64,000 nucleotides of DNA from Nitrospirales bacterium LBB_01. GTDB taxonomy: Bacteria > Nitrospirota > Thermodesulfovibrionia > Thermodesulfovibrionales > Magnetobacteriaceae. The stretch spans positions 992,001 to 1,056,000 of the forward strand of contig CP049016.1 of the NCBI GenBank assembly GCA_004376055.2, in the 5' to 3' direction. Made by a program: the position numbers and the translations under genes. Positions 9,026-41,775 of this stretch are shown in pieces. Under the pieces are notes generated by a model. It was given only the letters and a program-made list of their open reading frames with translations, did no database searches and was not told where the DNA came from. Within the stretch, counting starts at the first letter, position 1; every line of letters starts with the position of its first letter.

Positions 9026-9895
9026 GTGAATAAGTTATGGAGCAAAGATACTGAGCAGAAGTTTTTTAATGAAGCTCAAAATTTTGTAACGCCGGAGCAG
9101 TTATTTTATGTTGCAGATGATGGCAAATATGTAGCATATTGGCCAAAAAGTTATGTGGGCAAGAAAAGTACTCTACAAAGCAGGAATGCACTTATTGGAA
9201 CATACACAGAGAAATGGTCAACCTGTTTAATTCAGGAGATTGTACAAGATAAGGGTTTATTTGCAGTACAAGGTGCGATATGCGATGAGGTTGCCTTATC
9301 AAATATGTCTCCTGCCGATGTGGTTATCTCAAAAAGCAAGAATATTACTCAAACGGCAGAAGAAATAATTGAAATAATTGAAGTTAAAATGTCTATCGTC
9401 TGGAACTGGGAACTTTTTCAGAATAAAAACCTTGTATGTGTTGGTGACTATAAAACTCATCAAGGAAATCCTGGGCTCTTACGCTCTGATTCAATGCTCA
9501 AAGCAATCGGTAAGAGCATAAATATCAGAATATCCAGTTGTAAGGCGTCTAAAATACCAATTATTATAATGGGTAATACTCCGATCACAAACAGCTACTA
9601 TTCCAAAGTGGATCATCTAAAAGCTGCTGGCATTGTACAAGGATTTTGGTCTGTTAATCCTGCTCCATTAGATGATGACGGCCAGAGTATCAAAAATACT
9701 GACAAACAAGGATTCTGCAGGTTTGATAGCTTTGTAGAGTTAAAAAACGCCTTTAGTGCTCTGTTGACTGAAGAGAGGAATTACTTTTCGAGCATGAAAA
9801 GCAAAAAGGAATTGGGACAAATCATAGAGAAAGCAAACAAAGAACAAACCTATGAGAAGAAAGCAGAGGTTTTTCTAAAACTAATCAATGAGTAA
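9026..9895 (+). CDS. Probable type II restriction endonuclease (PD-(D/E)xK)
   Basis: This is a 289-residue protein directly upstream of, and overlapping, a DNA methyltransferase gene. A PD-(D/E)xK nuclease signature is visible: PAD with Asp98, then the pair in IIEVKMS, Glu119 and Lys121. The rest looks like a compact alpha/beta endonuclease (ICDEVALSNMSPADVVIS). Its recognition site cannot be read from the sequence. The start is GTG at 9026. A -10-like TAAAAT ends only 6 bases before it, and AGGTGA lies between. The type II call rests on the catalytic motif and the partner methylase. It lies divergent from the dcw operon. Confidence 0.8.
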   Translation: MNKLWSKDTEQKFFNEAQNFVTPEQLFYVADDGKYVAYWPKSYVGKKSTLQSRNALIGTYTEKWSTCLIQEIVQDKGLFAVQGAICDEVALSNMSPADVVISKSKNITQTAEEIIEIIEVKMSIVWNWELFQNKNLVCVGDYKTHQGNPGLLRSDSMLKAIGKSINIRISSCKASKIPIIIMGNTPITNSYYSKVDHLKAAGIVQGFWSVNPAPLDDDGQSIKNTDKQGFCRFDSFVELKNAFSALLTEERNYFSSMKSKKELGQIIEKANKEQTYEKKAEVFLKLINE

Positions 9896-10841
9896 TCAAA
9901 CCGAGACTTTAAAGAAATACAAACGTAATGGCACCAAAACGAGCGCCTTTGGAACTCCGGGCAGGGTAAACCATGATTCCTCAGAGTTTTATGACAGTAA
10001 ACTGTATGGGGACAAAAAAGTTCCTGAGTTCGTTAAAATTATTGAAAATGCGATTCCACCTGAGAATCTCAATGTAATATATTGTAAATCCAGCGAACTG
10101 ATGGATGAGATTCCTGATTACAGCGTTCACCTAATGGTTACCTCACCGCCGTACAATGTTAAAAAGGAATATGACGAGGATTTGTCTCTTAAAGAGTACA
10201 GAGATTTGCTAAAAAAAGTCTTCAATGAAACGTATAAAAAACTTGTAACAGGCGGCAGAGCATGTATTAATATAGCCAACCTTGGGAGAAAACCTTACAT
10301 CCCCTTACACAGCTATATAATAGAGGATATGGCTGATATTGGTTTTTTTATGAGAGGCGAAATAATCTGGAATAAAGCATCAAGCGCAAGTTCGTCAACA
10401 GCATGGGGCAGTTGGTTGTCTGCCGGCAATCCGGTACTAAGGGACATCCACGAATATATTTTGATTTTTTCTAAGGAGTCTTTTTCAAGGAAAAAAGGGA
10501 GCAAGAAAAACACAATTGCAAAAGAAAATTTTCTTGAATGGACAAAAAGTGTCTGGACATTTCCAGCGGTCTCAGCACGGAGCATTGGACATCCTGCTCC
10601 TTTCCCAGAGGAGTTACCTAATAGATTGATTCAACTTTATACTTTTAAAGACGATGTTGTTTTAGACCCATTTTGTGGCAGCGGCACAGCTTGTCTAAGC
10701 GCTCTGAAAAACGAAAGGCATTATGTCGGCTATGATATTGAACCAGCTTATGTAACATTAGCAAATCAAAGAATAGAGTCTTTACGTAAAACAATAGATT
10801 CCCAACATAGAGAGGAGAAAACGAGTGGAAATAAAAATTAA
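9888..10841 (+). CDS. Type II DNA methyltransferase (beta-class, m4C or m6A)
   Basis: This is the modification partner of the preceding endonuclease, protecting host DNA by methylating an exocyclic amino group. Catalytic motif IV, TSPPYN, is at 85-90. The SAM-binding motif I, DPFCGSGTA, comes later, near 260. The catalytic-before-SAM order defines the beta class. SPPY is compatible with N4-cytosine or N6-adenine methylation, and I cannot decide which. The gene overlaps the endonuclease stop by 8 bases, and its own stop overlaps the pepA start. The cassette is therefore tightly packed against pepA. Confidence 0.92.
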   Translation: MSNQTETLKKYKRNGTKTSAFGTPGRVNHDSSEFYDSKLYGDKKVPEFVKIIENAIPPENLNVIYCKSSELMDEIPDYSVHLMVTSPPYNVKKEYDEDLSLKEYRDLLKKVFNETYKKLVTGGRACINIANLGRKPYIPLHSYIIEDMADIGFFMRGEIIWNKASSASSSTAWGSWLSAGNPVLRDIHEYILIFSKESFSRKKGSKKNTIAKENFLEWTKSVWTFPAVSARSIGHPAPFPEELPNRLIQLYTFKDDVVLDPFCGSGTACLSALKNERHYVGYDIEPAYVTLANQRIESLRKTIDSQHREEKTSGNKN

Positions 10842-35618: not shown

Positions 35619-37118
35619 CTAAACGTCTGGTCTTGTTCGTCTTTTTTGTGCAAATTCATTTCTTGCCGCATCCATGTTTTTCCTTTTTTTGACGTTTAGA
35701 TTCATATGTGTCATCAATTCCGAGGAGGGAGGGATTTTATTGTCATTACTGGTTGTTACCATTTTATAGAAATCACAATCATGGCAGATTATTTTTATTT
35801 TTTCCTCCCACGATTTATACCTTCTGCCGCCTCCGCACATATCCGTAGTTGCGTTTATGTACATACAGGCACGTCCTGCATTGACTCCTTCAAGGAATCC
35901 ATCGGCGTCAACATTTACAAAAGCAGGACACTCTTCAAAGCCGTTGCACTTTTTATATTCCCAGCAGTTGATGAACTTATAAGAGTCCTCGTGCACCTTT
36001 ATTTTTGAAATATTGTGCTTTATCAGATCCAAAATGTGGGCATCTCCGAGCACTACGCCGCACTCTATCAACGGTTCATCTTTACCGGGGAGATAGACGT
36101 TTTCCGCTAATATCATACCGCTTTTGATTTGAACGTCTGTAATCTGTTTCACTCCTGTTATCACTGCTCTTTTCAAACCGAACGCTTTCTCTACATACCC
36201 ATACATTCGCTTCAGCGTAAAGGGTCTTACCAGAATATCCACTATTACGTCGCACTTCTTCAGAAGTCTTTGCACTTGTTCTAAGTCAGTCTGGGAACTC
36301 ATTATGGCCAGAATCTTGAACTTGGCATTAGAGTATTGAATCGTATAGATAAATTCACAAAAAGCTTCGAGACCATCAAAATAGCATTCGTCAATAATTA
36401 AGAGGTCACAACGCATCGTAAAAAGAAATATCTCAAGACGCCTAAAGCTGTTGCATCCGTTTGCCACAACCACACCCTTATAGAACTCCATCAAACTCCA
36501 TATTACAGAAGAGAAAATATCCTCACGTATATATATAAGAAATTCCTTCTTACTTACAGCATGTTTGTTAAGAAGTTGTTTTAAGACTATGGATTTTTCT
36601 CTTTCTTTTTTCAACTCTTTTGCTGCTGGCAGTAGGGCGTCAAGGCTAAAGAGAGGTTTTAAAAATCTGCTTAGTGTATCAATAGAGGACTCGGTTGTCT
36701 CCATAACATTTAGTTCAAAAAATGGGATTGCATCCATTTTGCCGTACTTATCGGAGTCGGTGTAAAAACGGTAAATCACGCCGTTTGTGAGTATTGCTAT
36801 TCTTGCCGTAGTCAGCGGGAAAATTTCATGAAGCGGATTTTTTTCCTTGTCAAGGTTAGTGCCCCAGTGTGCACACTCTACGAGCATCGACGGTGTCCCC
36901 TTCTGCATAATTACATAGTCAACCGTATATGGGGCCTGGTGCTCAACCGTTATCATATAATCCGGAACTACCTCTGCCGGGTCAAAGACATCGTACCCAA
37001 GCGCCTGCAAAAGCGGCATTGTTAAAGCAACTTTTGTGGATTCTTTGCTTTTTATGTTTTCATACTTCTTGCGGATTTCACTGGCAAGTTTCTGTATTTT
37101 TCTTTCTAATTCAATCAT
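35619..37118 (-). CDS. HsdR-N-like / receiver-like / cysteine-cluster multidomain protein
   Basis: This is a 499-residue protein of unusual build. Residues 1-155 resemble the type I restriction HsdR N-terminal nuclease domain (MPLLQALGYDVFDPAEVVPD, TVDYVIMQKG with Asp67, then LVECAHWG with Glu81). The catalytic Lys expected two residues after Glu81 is Ala, so it is probably not a nuclease. Residues about 190-310 look like a degenerate CheY receiver (CDLLIIDECYFDGLEAF, then VRPFTLKRMYGYV with Arg for Lys). The C-terminal part has NCWEYKKCNGFEECPAF and further cysteines (RACMYI, DMCGGG, ICHDCDF) like 'two-CW' metal-binding modules. GGGAGAGGA at 9 bases supports the ATG at 37118. Function unknown. 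Confidence 0.65.
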   Translation of the reverse strand: MIELERKIQKLASEIRKKYENIKSKESTKVALTMPLLQALGYDVFDPAEVVPDYMITVEHQAPYTVDYVIMQKGTPSMLVECAHWGTNLDKEKNPLHEIFPLTTARIAILTNGVIYRFYTDSDKYGKMDAIPFFELNVMETTESSIDTLSRFLKPLFSLDALLPAAKELKKEREKSIVLKQLLNKHAVSKKEFLIYIREDIFSSVIWSLMEFYKGVVVANGCNSFRRLEIFLFTMRCDLLIIDECYFDGLEAFCEFIYTIQYSNAKFKILAIMSSQTDLEQVQRLLKKCDVIVDILVRPFTLKRMYGYVEKAFGLKRAVITGVKQITDVQIKSGMILAENVYLPGKDEPLIECGVVLGDAHILDLIKHNISKIKVHEDSYKFINCWEYKKCNGFEECPAFVNVDADGFLEGVNAGRACMYINATTDMCGGGRRYKSWEEKIKIICHDCDFYKMVTTSNDNKIPPSSELMTHMNLNVKKRKNMDAARNEFAQKRRTRPDV

Positions 37119-37239
37119 GTAAAAAAATCCTCTCCCGTTCGTTAAATCACATTCTAACATGAAGCGGATTTAGTTGTCCATAAACTATCTTTACAGTTAA
37201 ATAGTTTAATGGGGAAAACTTGACTTTGCAAAAGACGGA

Positions 37240-37854
37240 ATGTTAGCTTATGAACCAATGAGTGGATTGTTTTATGTTAAATCGCTGATTAAATGTCATG
37301 TAACCATCGGACTGTTATTCTTTAGTGCATTAGCATTATCGCTTTGCTGCAACAGTGTTTTTGCAAAAGATTTAAATGATTACAAGAAAATTATAAGGTT
37401 AAAGTGCGGTTATCCACAGGATGAGATATATGTTTTACCGGTAAAGCTCCCTGTGAGAAAGGCTGATGCTAAGCTAAATGACGAATATTTGAAAGCGGCC
37501 CGGGTTTTAGAATCAACGAATGATGTAAAAATAGAAAGTAATGCAACAGGTACTGTAATTACGCCATTAGGCGATAACCACGATGTGCTTCTGCGGACAC
37601 TTGATTTAAGTTACAAGTTGGATAGTCTTGGTGTCATTTTAGGCTCCTATGATTTCCATGCGTTAAAGATGTCTGAAAAAAACGATGAGACAATTGTAAC
37701 AGGTGAGAAAATATTTACACCCAGCAGACTTTATAAAAATATCATTAAAGTATTAACCTCAGTTGATATTACTAAATATAAGAAACATGATGTACAGTGG
37801 AGAATAGTCAAAAACGGCACAAAATACAGTGTCAGTGAAACGGTTATTAAGTAG
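37240..37854 (+). CDS. Exported protein of unknown function
   Basis: This is a 204-residue protein with a hydrophobic segment at about 22-40 followed by FAKDL, which looks like a signal peptide if translation starts at the second ATG (37258). The mature part is mixed alpha/beta with repeated basic and acidic stretches and no motif I recognise. No clear ribosome-binding site is present. It precedes the SGNH-MBOAT-SGNH genes by about 50 bases, and the next gene has its own promoter. It may or may not belong to that system. Confidence 0.6.
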   Translation: MLAYEPMSGLFYVKSLIKCHVTIGLLFFSALALSLCCNSVFAKDLNDYKKIIRLKCGYPQDEIYVLPVKLPVRKADAKLNDEYLKAARVLESTNDVKIESNATGTVITPLGDNHDVLLRTLDLSYKLDSLGVILGSYDFHALKMSEKNDETIVTGEKIFTPSRLYKNIIKVLTSVDITKYKKHDVQWRIVKNGTKYSVSETVIK

Positions 37855-37870
37855 TGTCCTTCAAAAGATA

Positions 37871-37899
37871 TTGTAAATCTCGTTAAAGTCCATTATAAT
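37871..37899 (+). promoter_or_regulatory. Promoter abutting the SGNH gene
   Basis: There is a -35 TTGTAA (37871-37876), a 17-base spacer and a perfect -10 TATAAT (37894-37899). The ATG at 37908 lies 8 bases further, with no Shine-Dalgarno. This predicts a leader of zero to two bases. Confidence 0.65.
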
Positions 37900-37907
37900 G
37901 AAGTGAT

Positions 37908-39134
37908 ATGAGAATTAAGAAGATTTTTATTGCCCTATTTTGTATTGTCTTGAGTCTAATGATAATGGAATTTATCGCTGGACGTATTCCATTCAAAAGA
38001 TATGACGGTACTCTGCATGATATGTTTCACCTCGTGGACAAGGACCTGCTGTTGCACCATAAATGGCATAAAAATGTGATGTGGCCGGATAATTACCGGA
38101 GCATTCCATATTTTCTATACATTAACAGCCAGTCATTTCTTGCACAATATGAAGTCACCGTAAAAAAGCCTAAAAATTTTTACAGGATATTTTACCTTGG
38201 GGACTCCACAACCCAGGGCGTGGTGGCTCCTATGTATAAAATGACTACGTTAGTTGAAAATGAACTCAATGCTAAATACAAAGACCTTGGAAAGAAAATT
38301 GAAGTAATAAACACAGGGACGTCTTCATTTGCAGTGTCACAATACATGTTGCTTATAGAAAATACATTGTTGGAGTATTCACCGGATTTGATTGTTATTG
38401 ATGTAGATATGTCCGATGTCGGCAATGATGCGTTTTACAAGACTTTAAGTACACTTGACAGTGACGGGTTTCCAATTATGATAAACAAAAGCTATCGGGC
38501 ATATATAAATTCTCCTGAGGGTTTTAAGAGGGTTCCTGTTTTGTTAGAAATTGCTCGTATTTTGGTAAACCACTCTAACCTTGCAGCTTACATTGAAACA
38601 TTAGTCAGTAAGTTAATAGTTAAATACACTGAAGGAGGAGGTTTGTTGGAGCAACAAGAAACAGCAGAACAAAAAGCATGGTCACAAAATAACCCGGATA
38701 ATAAAACATGGAAACATAAAATTAGTGAACCTGAAACATTTGACTGTCCACTGGGTGGTGTAAACTGGGGATCCGACCATCCTACGGATAAAGACAAAGA
38801 AGCTGTGGCTTATTCAATGAAACTTCTTGGCAGAGCGATTGATATTTGTAGAAAACACAATATAAAAGTAATTATAACCGGAGCGCCAATCCACTGTCAG
38901 TTTACAGACAAATGCAGCGCACTTCAACATAAAGACATTGAAAAGACAGCTCTTTTACATAAGGCGTATTATTTGGACTCTGTTGAGTCATTAAGACCGT
39001 TTATAGAAGATGCCCCAGCGGACAAATATTACTGGAAATCAGACACATCACATTTCAATATTGAGGGCAATGCACTATGGGCAAAAGCACAGGTCAATTT
39101 CATTGTTAAAAACAATATTATAACTGGAAAATAA
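37908..39134 (+). CDS. Membrane-anchored SGNH-hydrolase-like protein (AlgX/AlgJ-type)
   Basis: This 408-residue protein has an N-terminal helix (about 5-24) and a periplasmic SGNH-type domain. The nucleophile block FYLGDSTTQGVV (Ser in GDST), the mid block INTGTSSFAVSQY and the late DTSHFNIEGNALWA (D-x-x-H) fit the SGNH triad. Such proteins often accompany MBOAT acyltransferases and add or move acetyl groups on surface polysaccharides. The MBOAT gene follows after 14 bases, so this is probably the acyl acceptor-side partner. Confidence 0.75.
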   Translation: MRIKKIFIALFCIVLSLMIMEFIAGRIPFKRYDGTLHDMFHLVDKDLLLHHKWHKNVMWPDNYRSIPYFLYINSQSFLAQYEVTVKKPKNFYRIFYLGDSTTQGVVAPMYKMTTLVENELNAKYKDLGKKIEVINTGTSSFAVSQYMLLIENTLLEYSPDLIVIDVDMSDVGNDAFYKTLSTLDSDGFPIMINKSYRAYINSPEGFKRVPVLLEIARILVNHSNLAAYIETLVSKLIVKYTEGGGLLEQQETAEQKAWSQNNPDNKTWKHKISEPETFDCPLGGVNWGSDHPTDKDKEAVAYSMKLLGRAIDICRKHNIKVIITGAPIHCQFTDKCSALQHKDIEKTALLHKAYYLDSVESLRPFIEDAPADKYYWKSDTSHFNIEGNALWAKAQVNFIVKNNIITGK

Positions 39135-39148
39135 TGATATAATTCTTC

Positions 39149-40636
39149 ATGCTTTTTAACTCATACGTCTATTTGTTTGTCTTTTTACCGGCAACGACCG
39201 GTATCTATTTTTTTCTTAATAAGTTAAAGAAAACCTTCGCTGCAAGAGTATTTCTTGTCTTAGCCTCTCTTATATTCTATTCATGGTGGAGTATAAGAGA
39301 TTTGCCTGTAATAATTATAAGTATAATCTTCAATTACACTATCGGGCTCAAGCTCGGAAAAACAAAAGATTCCAGCTACAGGAAACGGTTGTTCATAACC
39401 GGTATAACGTTTAATGTTTTACTGCTGATTTTTTATAAATATACCGATTTTTTAATTTTTAACGCAAATGCCATATTTAACACTAACATCAACATGCTTA
39501 AACTTACCCTGCCTCTTGGCATCAGTTTTTTCACCATAACTCAGATTGCCTACCTATCCGACGCATATAGGCAGACGGTTAAGGAGTATAATGGTACTAA
39601 TTATTCGCTTTTTGTGACTTTTTTCCCCCACCTGCTTGCCGGCCCCATACTACACCACAGAGAGATGATGCCGCAGTTTGACAGGATGAGAAATAAGGTT
39701 TTCAGTTCAAAAAACACCGTAAGAGCTCTTGTTCTTATTGTAATCGGATTGATAAAAAAAGTTGCCATAGCCGATTATCTCTCTGCGTGGGCAGATTTTG
39801 GATTTGACACTGCAGGAACTCTCACAATGCTGCAAGCATGGATAACCAGTTTGGCTTATACGCTTCAGATTTACTTTGATTTTTCAGGCTACACCGATAT
39901 GGCGCTTGGCTCTGCGCTGCTGCTAAACATTCACCTTCCCCTGAATTTTAATTCGCCCTATAAATCGTTAAATATCCGAGAGTTCTGGAGAGCATGGCAT
40001 ATGACTCTCAGCAGATTTCTGCGTGATTATCTCTACATCCCACTGGGCGGAAACAGATGCGGCACGGCACGGATTAATCTAAATATCATACTCACTTTTA
40101 TTATAGGAGGGATATGGCATGGGGCAGGGTGGGGATTTCTTATTTGGGGAGCCCTTCATGGTCTTGCTTACGCTTTGTATCGCCTCTGGCAAAGTTTTGG
40201 TCTTAGATTAACAAGACCTCTTGCATGGTTTTTGACTTTCAACTTTATAAACATAACATGGATTTTCTTTAGAGCAAAATCATTTGCAGATGCTGTTAAG
40301 GTTATTAAGGGAATGGTTAACTTTGGCAGTGTAGAGGTTAAAACATTTCTTAATACAGCGCTTTTGTTTACTATGGATTTTATAAATCTGTTTCAGGATG
40401 GGGAAAAATTTCAGGCGCTTGGCACTTTATTTAACTATTTCTCTGCAGATGCCGCCAAACTCCTATGTTTAGCGTTACTCATAACAGTGTGTGTTTCCTG
40501 TCGTAATTCTAATGATATTTCAAAGGATTTTTCCCCAAACTGGAAAAATGCTCTTTTGTTTGGCTTTTTAGGAGCAGTTGCTCTCATGTTGGTCCACAAA
40601 GAGAAACTCTCAAAATTTCTGTATTTTAATTTCTGA
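39149..40636 (+). CDS. MBOAT-family O-acyltransferase (AlgI/DltB-like)
   Basis: This is a polytopic membrane enzyme of 495 residues that moves acetyl groups across the inner membrane for polysaccharide O-acetylation. The DltB/AlgI signatures FREFWRAWHMTLSRFLRDYL-like (REFWRAWHMTLSRFLRDY), YIPLGGNR and the catalytic His in GGIWHGAGWGFLIWG are present. PHLLAGPILHHREMMPQF is also typical. It is flanked by two SGNH-like genes. TATAAT lies 5 bases before its ATG, so a secondary internal promoter is conceivable but lacks a good -35. Confidence 0.92.
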   Translation: MLFNSYVYLFVFLPATTGIYFFLNKLKKTFAARVFLVLASLIFYSWWSIRDLPVIIISIIFNYTIGLKLGKTKDSSYRKRLFITGITFNVLLLIFYKYTDFLIFNANAIFNTNINMLKLTLPLGISFFTITQIAYLSDAYRQTVKEYNGTNYSLFVTFFPHLLAGPILHHREMMPQFDRMRNKVFSSKNTVRALVLIVIGLIKKVAIADYLSAWADFGFDTAGTLTMLQAWITSLAYTLQIYFDFSGYTDMALGSALLLNIHLPLNFNSPYKSLNIREFWRAWHMTLSRFLRDYLYIPLGGNRCGTARINLNIILTFIIGGIWHGAGWGFLIWGALHGLAYALYRLWQSFGLRLTRPLAWFLTFNFINITWIFFRAKSFADAVKVIKGMVNFGSVEVKTFLNTALLFTMDFINLFQDGEKFQALGTLFNYFSADAAKLLCLALLITVCVSCRNSNDISKDFSPNWKNALLFGFLGAVALMLVHKEKLSKFLYFNF

Positions 40637-40650
40637 GCGATGAGACTTGT

Positions 40651-41775
40651 ATGAAGATAAATATTTATAAAAAATGGATACTTATATTCTTTTTGGTATC
40701 AACATCTTTGATACTTTTCAATTTCATTATTGATTCAAACGGGTATTTCCAACTTATAAAAATTAATGGGATAAATGCCAACAAATATGAAATCATATCA
40801 GAGTATGCAACAAAGCTGTATTATGCAAGGTGTGCGAAACCTGCGGCTTTAATGCTGGGAACGTCTCGTATGATGGTCTTTAAGCCCTCTGACGTGGAGC
40901 ATTATATAAATATGAAAACCTATAACTTATCTCTTTCCGGCTCAAATGTATATGAACAGTTCAACTACTTTAACTATATGGTAAAAAACTATGATATAAA
41001 ATATGTGATATTAAGTTTGGATTTTTTCTCCTATAGTCCTGAAAATAAAGACAAAATCGGGTTTAACGAAAGGCGGTTTAAGCACGGGTTTTTACTCAGT
41101 GACTTTAAAGATGCGCTTTTTGGGCTGCAGAGCCTGAAATCAAGTGTTGACGCTGTAAGAAACAACATTGCCGGAAAATGTGCGCAGATAAATTGGACAG
41201 AGGGCTACAGCACGTGGTGTGAAAAGGAAAAGGCAGTGCAAGAGTACGGAGATGTCATCATTGAGCGAGATATGAAAAATTCACTCAAAGTATTTTCCAC
41301 AGACCCGCTGGGTTACAATTCAGAGGCTTTTAAAAATCCAGATTCAATTAATGATAATCTGCTGCTCTTAAAACGCATCGTTAATACTTGTAAGGAGCGC
41401 GGCATTACCCTGAAACTCTATATCAGTCCAATATATAAGAATCAGTTTGACCTAATATATGCAATGGGATTAGGTGACACCTATGAAAAGTGGAAATATG
41501 AAATAGCACAAATTGCTGACTATTATGACTTTACAGGACGAAACTCTGTAACCTCAGACAAAAGCCTCTGGTGGGACACCTCACACCTTAAAGCTCAATA
41601 CGGTAAATACATCTTTGCCCGTATCTTTGGAGATAACAAGACCACAGTTCCAGAGGACTTCGGCATACTTATTACAAAAGAAAATGCTGCTGAAAATATT
41701 ACTAAACTTAACACCCAGGTTAAATCTACTGATGTAAAGGAGATTCTACTTCTAAATGACGATTATGATAATTAA
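40651..41775 (+). CDS. Membrane-anchored SGNH-like protein, MBOAT partner
   Basis: This 374-residue protein has an N-terminal helix (about 9-27). The motif MLGTSRMMVFKPSD (GTSR in place of GDS) and the late WWDTSHLKAQYGKYI (D-x-x-H) suggest a diverged SGNH/DUF1574-type fold. It follows the MBOAT gene by 14 bases. With the upstream SGNH gene this gives two periplasmic partners around one acyltransferase, as in alginate-type acetylation systems. Confidence 0.7.
   Translation: MKINIYKKWILIFFLVSTSLILFNFIIDSNGYFQLIKINGINANKYEIISEYATKLYYARCAKPAALMLGTSRMMVFKPSDVEHYINMKTYNLSLSGSNVYEQFNYFNYMVKNYDIKYVILSLDFFSYSPENKDKIGFNERRFKHGFLLSDFKDALFGLQSLKSSVDAVRNNIAGKCAQINWTEGYSTWCEKEKAVQEYGDVIIERDMKNSLKVFSTDPLGYNSEAFKNPDSINDNLLLLKRIVNTCKERGITLKLYISPIYKNQFDLIYAMGLGDTYEKWKYEIAQIADYYDFTGRNSVTSDKSLWWDTSHLKAQYGKYIFARIFGDNKTTVPEDFGILITKENAAENITKLNTQVKSTDVKEILLLNDDYDN

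Follow-up and report, generated by a model that had tools for sequence, protein, structure and literature searches.

The window analysed here, a stretch of 64,000 nucleotides from the genome of Nitrospirales bacterium LBB_01 (3.27 Mb, a single contig), carries on its minus strand a gene (35619..37118) for a chimeric protein of 499 amino acids plus stop; all parts of the protein described below lie on that strand. The protein consists of an HsdR-N-like fold (residues 1-158), a charged helical linker (159-192; 36543..36644), an atypical receiver (193-315), a segment of about 60 residues without assignment and an NCBIfam two-CW domain (384-455), and it ends in a basic C-terminal helix (456-499; 35622..35753). 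The linker, helical in the model, is the least conserved part, and the terminal helix spans residues 466-494 in a low-confidence model. An in-frame ATG is present upstream at 37160; the ten aligned orthologues start at 37118 instead. They share start and length with the window protein at 58-90% identity, which marks the gene as real and conserved, and with ten full-length sequences this similar, an origin by chance or by frameshift is ruled out. The three-part protein was found only in a few Nitrospirota that are relatives of magnetotactic bacteria. Its architecture falls outside every whole-protein family model used here; the combination of domains is new, while the parts and the general kind of protein are already known. 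A full-length AlphaFold2 model from nine sequences was unreliable (pLDDT 40, with spurious ribosome-assembly chains as best Foldseek matches) and was discarded.

The N-terminal third (36645..37118) had been taken in an earlier note, made from the sequence alone, for the N-terminal domain of the restriction subunit HsdR, and a Pfam match to HSDR_N above the curated cut-off bears this out (PF04313, residues 60-124, E = 6e-6, 26.7 bits against 25.1); HSDR_N_2 (PF13588) scored 24.5, slightly below its cut-off of 25. Residues 8-217 are 38% identical to a stand-alone HSDR_N protein of 367 amino acids in the same genome (G000:C1:1863031), and the homology to the stand-alone relative at locus L032 runs on to about residue 187. 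The order of strands and helices fits a PD-(D/E)xK fold in a model that is of low confidence in this region (pLDDT about 26-63). A PDB profile search with the N domain found no solved relative by sequence. A helicase domain is absent from the 499-residue protein in the Pfam scan, and neither hsdM nor hsdS is among the neighbouring genes read in the window. The stand-alone HSDR_N gene at L032 (4496-5599; G000:C1:1862995-1864095), with intact motifs, is flanked by a nuoF-like and a nuoG-like gene within the NADH dehydrogenase operon.

The central domain (36174..36542) displays the acidic pair E199-D200, D243 within an IIDE motif and, in RPFT, R298 in the place of the conserved Lys. It has no Pfam receiver match at the scan threshold used. 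In a PDB profile search with a profile of 18 relatives, the five best matches were response regulators (best E = 5.7e-4), and an AlphaFold2 model of the domain (pLDDT 77, pTM 0.73) shows a (beta-alpha)5 fold of five alternating strands and helices; each of the 50 best Foldseek matches of this model in the PDB (probability 1.00, TM about 0.55-0.71 by query length) is a receiver or contains one. A profile-profile comparison with five ordinary receivers aligned 99 columns with a probability of only 4%, so that the receiver claim rests on the domain model and the PDB profile search. These results confirm the receiver-like fold with PFTL, IIDE and Arg for Lys that had been read from the sequence, but the domain is not "degenerate" through decay: D200 and D243 are invariant in 45 aligned members, and the Lys before Pro after strand 5 is replaced by Arg in 44 of them, which shows the Arg to be a long-standing feature of the family. 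Multidomain proteins carry Glu immediately ahead of D200, single-domain ones mostly Lys, Arg or Gln. Lys-to-Arg receivers may be phosphorylated, yet fail normal switching; a literature search on the Lys-to-Arg change in CheY returned nothing useful.

Of 296 genomes of the phylum searched with the receiver profile, 31 have the family; most members are short open frames of about 140-180 amino acids from two other families of the order. Single-domain forms of about 140 amino acids with RPFT or RPFN (L014, L060, L013 and others) are spread over the order and lie downstream of a panB-like gene in the two loci that were read; none of the libraries used gives them a family name.

Between receiver and two-CW domain, residues 323-380 (35979..36152) form a segment without assignment (GM..AENVY..GKDEPLIECGVVL) that is kept in all homologues and paralogues; in the paralogues it resembles the C-terminal part of an HD-GYP-type response regulator model, but only at scores below threshold. 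The two-CW domain (35754..35969) was matched by NCBIfam NF045718 (E = 1.9e-12, 47.4 bits against a cut-off of 35), with CM as its second CW. Eight Cys residues (C353, C385, C391, C397, C418, C428, C445 and C448) are invariant in ten orthologues, the last seven inside this domain and C353 outside it. The C-terminal cysteine module of the earlier note therefore exists, but is a known domain and not a novel one. Nine two-CW matches above cut-off occur in this genome, one of them fused to an ordinary receiver, and in a relative the domain is joined, by reading, to an HDOD-like domain. A literature search found no paper on it.

In the window protein the E-x-K motif reads E81-C82-A83 (36870..36878). 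Residue 83 in ECAHW is indeed Ala (codon GCA), in agreement with the earlier reading that the catalytic Lys after Glu81 is replaced, and D...E-x-K is incomplete, with D67 (36918-36920) and E26 retained. The impression of an inactive nuclease fits this protein and those of two sister species; the other eight of the 11 full-length homologues have an intact D...E-C-K. Intact homologues with a different domain order had been named as evidence against the proposal, and they were found in the first respect only, since the domain order is the same in all eight. The sister species have Thr at position 83 and have also lost the Glu, with Ala at 81 (ACT). In the protein tree the three Lys-less sequences group together (support 98/99), adjoined by the Lys-bearing L004, and a single loss of Lys in that clade is the simplest reading. 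From the fit of the codons AAG, ACA and GCA we infer a possible path from Lys through Thr to Ala. A migrated catalytic Lys was also considered: K91 and K93 lie nearby, but both are found in L004 with its intact ECK as well and are thus no compensation specific to the Lys-less sequences.

With the triad intact and conserved in eight of the 11 homologues, and with a catalytic version of the fold in HsdR itself (PMC2602864), the N domain could be an active nuclease switched by the receiver in the D...E-C-K homologues, the window species being a recent loss-of-activity variant. We consider this unlikely. QxxxY, a motif of RecB-like nucleases that has been considered for EcoR124I (PMC2602864; PMC4454674), occurs in four stand-alone relatives (QLFRY, QLLNY, QLARY, QATNY) and in none of the 11 chimeras, although Type I family IA likewise has no clear QxxxY motif (PMC4454674). 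Moreover, after the loss of the Lys the remainder of the protein stayed under selection, and window and sisters are still 89-90% identical there, which is hard to square with cleavage as the main function, and a defence or toxin context is absent.

Ordinary decay would be another account of the same residues, the N domain losing its function in the window clade and the receiver/two-CW part alone being of importance. It would explain the lost Lys and, in the sisters, the lost Glu; the N domain also evolves somewhat faster than the receiver, and the same genomes still contain homologues that lack it. This, too, is rather improbable, as the reading frame, E26 and D67 are kept and dN/dS of the N domain is 0.14-0.22 in comparisons within the window's genus. 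Between the window and a sister protein, both motif-less, it is 0.18 at 91% identity, which indicates that purifying selection maintains the domain for a role independent of the Lys. The first 400 or so bases of the gene (window 36700-37118 against L003) have a dS of 0.30, compared with about 0.5-1.0 for the remainder; recombination or constraint is a possible cause of this lower value at the gene start.

The co-occurrence of the three domains in Nitrospirota, for which the earlier note had asked, could be counted: the full architecture occurs in seven of 396 genomes of the phylum. Overall, two genera (10 genomes) and MYbin6, a further Nitrospirota bin, yielded it, the matching records in the named collection being Nitrospirae bins and Candidatus Magnetominusculus; the collection scan that gave MYbin6 used two short receiver patterns only and may miss more distant chimeras. 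Homologues without the nuclease domain, 31-44% identical over the rest, turned up in five further searched genomes as well as in this one. Since they share the same genomes, the simplest and, judged from these sequences, the probable history of the fusion is that a receiver/two-CW protein already present acquired an HSDR_N domain. In one genome (G001, L036 9913-12448) the full-length gene is immediately followed, on the same strand, by a nuclease-less paralogue. A literature search on HsdR-N joined to a receiver gave nothing useful.

The neighbouring genes in the window were read as lplA-, nth-, birA- and coaX-like. The same gene order is kept in a sister species, where the gene adjoins cobalamin-synthesis-like genes; in the window, SGNH-like and MBOAT-like acyltransferases (37240-41775) lie between the gene and a cbiG-like gene, which is not so in the sister locus L038. 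In four loci of the Ca. Magnetominusculus type, the gene is followed at 38-225 bases, in the same direction, by one for a REC-HisKA-HATPase-type kinase (domains scanned and confirmed with Pfam in one of them), and in MYbin6 a similar kinase gene comes after two others. The window's genus, in which this kinase gene is not next to the chimera gene, has no close copy of it, for which reason an obligate kinase partner was rejected.

A new signalling or defence-sensing architecture had been proposed in the earlier note. Its signalling half is plausible, and none of the whole-protein family models used here covers the chimera. A defence or anti-phage sensor, by contrast, is highly improbable: the HsdR-like domain is the only feature in favour, PADLOC gave no match for the gene, and the neighbours are housekeeping genes, common to the window and a sister species, or kinase genes. 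Elsewhere in the window (9026-10841, plus strand) an overlapping gene pair encodes an N6/N4 DNA methyltransferase (PF01555, 1e-44; PADLOC MTase_II, 1e-132) and, ahead of it, a protein of 289 amino acids without Pfam or PADLOC match, a candidate for a Type II restriction enzyme not yet described.

With evenly balanced confidence, we propose that the chimera is a soluble, lineage-specific signalling adaptor, whose nuclease fold would act only by binding in the window clade. Motifs, selection and context led us to infer this role, of which the absence of cleavage in the window species, metal binding, the ligand and the direction of the signal are putative parts. An atypical receiver/two-CW protein would have gained the HsdR-N-type PD-(D/E)xK domain in an ancestor of two related genera. 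Most descendants kept D/E-x-K, and binding of metal and nucleic acid by the domain may persist in them; the window species and its two sisters have lost the catalytic Lys (the sisters also the Glu), and there it would bind without cleaving. The receiver, with its phospho-acceptor Asp kept and Arg for Lys, would probably pass on a signal via protein contact or altered phosphorylation, and the cysteine module might be a redox- or metal-responsive input or output. We count in favour of the adaptor the domain calls and motif states, the supported loss clade, the dN/dS of 0.18, the nuclease-less homologues, the fixed-Arg receiver family, the kinase neighbours, the other two-CW fusions and the HsdR mutant K167A of EcoR124I, which does not cleave (PMC2602864). 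Against it we count that in the window's genus the kinase gene is not a neighbour, the full-length pLDDT of 40 and the lack of a solved relative of the N domain.

A further step, to which we assign quite a low probability, would be that catalysis was given up and binding kept within one genus, turning a receiver-regulated nuclease into a nucleic-acid-binding switch wired to a redox/metal module. If true, it would provide, within one conserved architecture, natural steps leading from an intact active site to a dead one. The orthologues form a small, well-defined set in which the nuclease motifs are intact, lost in part or lost altogether while the signalling protein is otherwise conserved; they open the way to testing what HsdR-N-like domains outside restriction enzymes do when they do not cleave. 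The chimera also points to a Lys-to-Arg receiver family with invariant aspartates that is spread through this order of Nitrospirota.

Among known systems, the response regulator receiver (PF00072) shares the (beta-alpha)5 fold, the acidic pair and the phospho-acceptor Asp with the central domain, which differs in the Arg for the conserved Lys, is Pfam-negative at the threshold used and belongs to an atypical family found, within the phylum sample, in this order only. PorX and other receiver-plus-effector proteins in the PDB resemble the chimera in receiver fold and in coupling a receiver to another domain, but their effector domains differ and the likeness is limited to the receiver. HSDR_N proteins (PF04313/PF13588), including stand-alone ones, are similar in the profile match, the D67 and E81 positions and the ExK intact in most homologues, whereas the chimera has neither helicase/translocase nor QxxxY, has lost the Lys in the window clade and is fused to receiver and two-CW domains. 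Compared with the Type I restriction subunit HsdR, it has no SF2 translocase domains and no HsdM/HsdS partners among the neighbours read. Its C-terminal domain resembles the two-CW domain (NF045718) in seven conserved Cys and a score over the curated cut-off, and is set apart by the CM that takes the place of the second CW throughout the chimera family.
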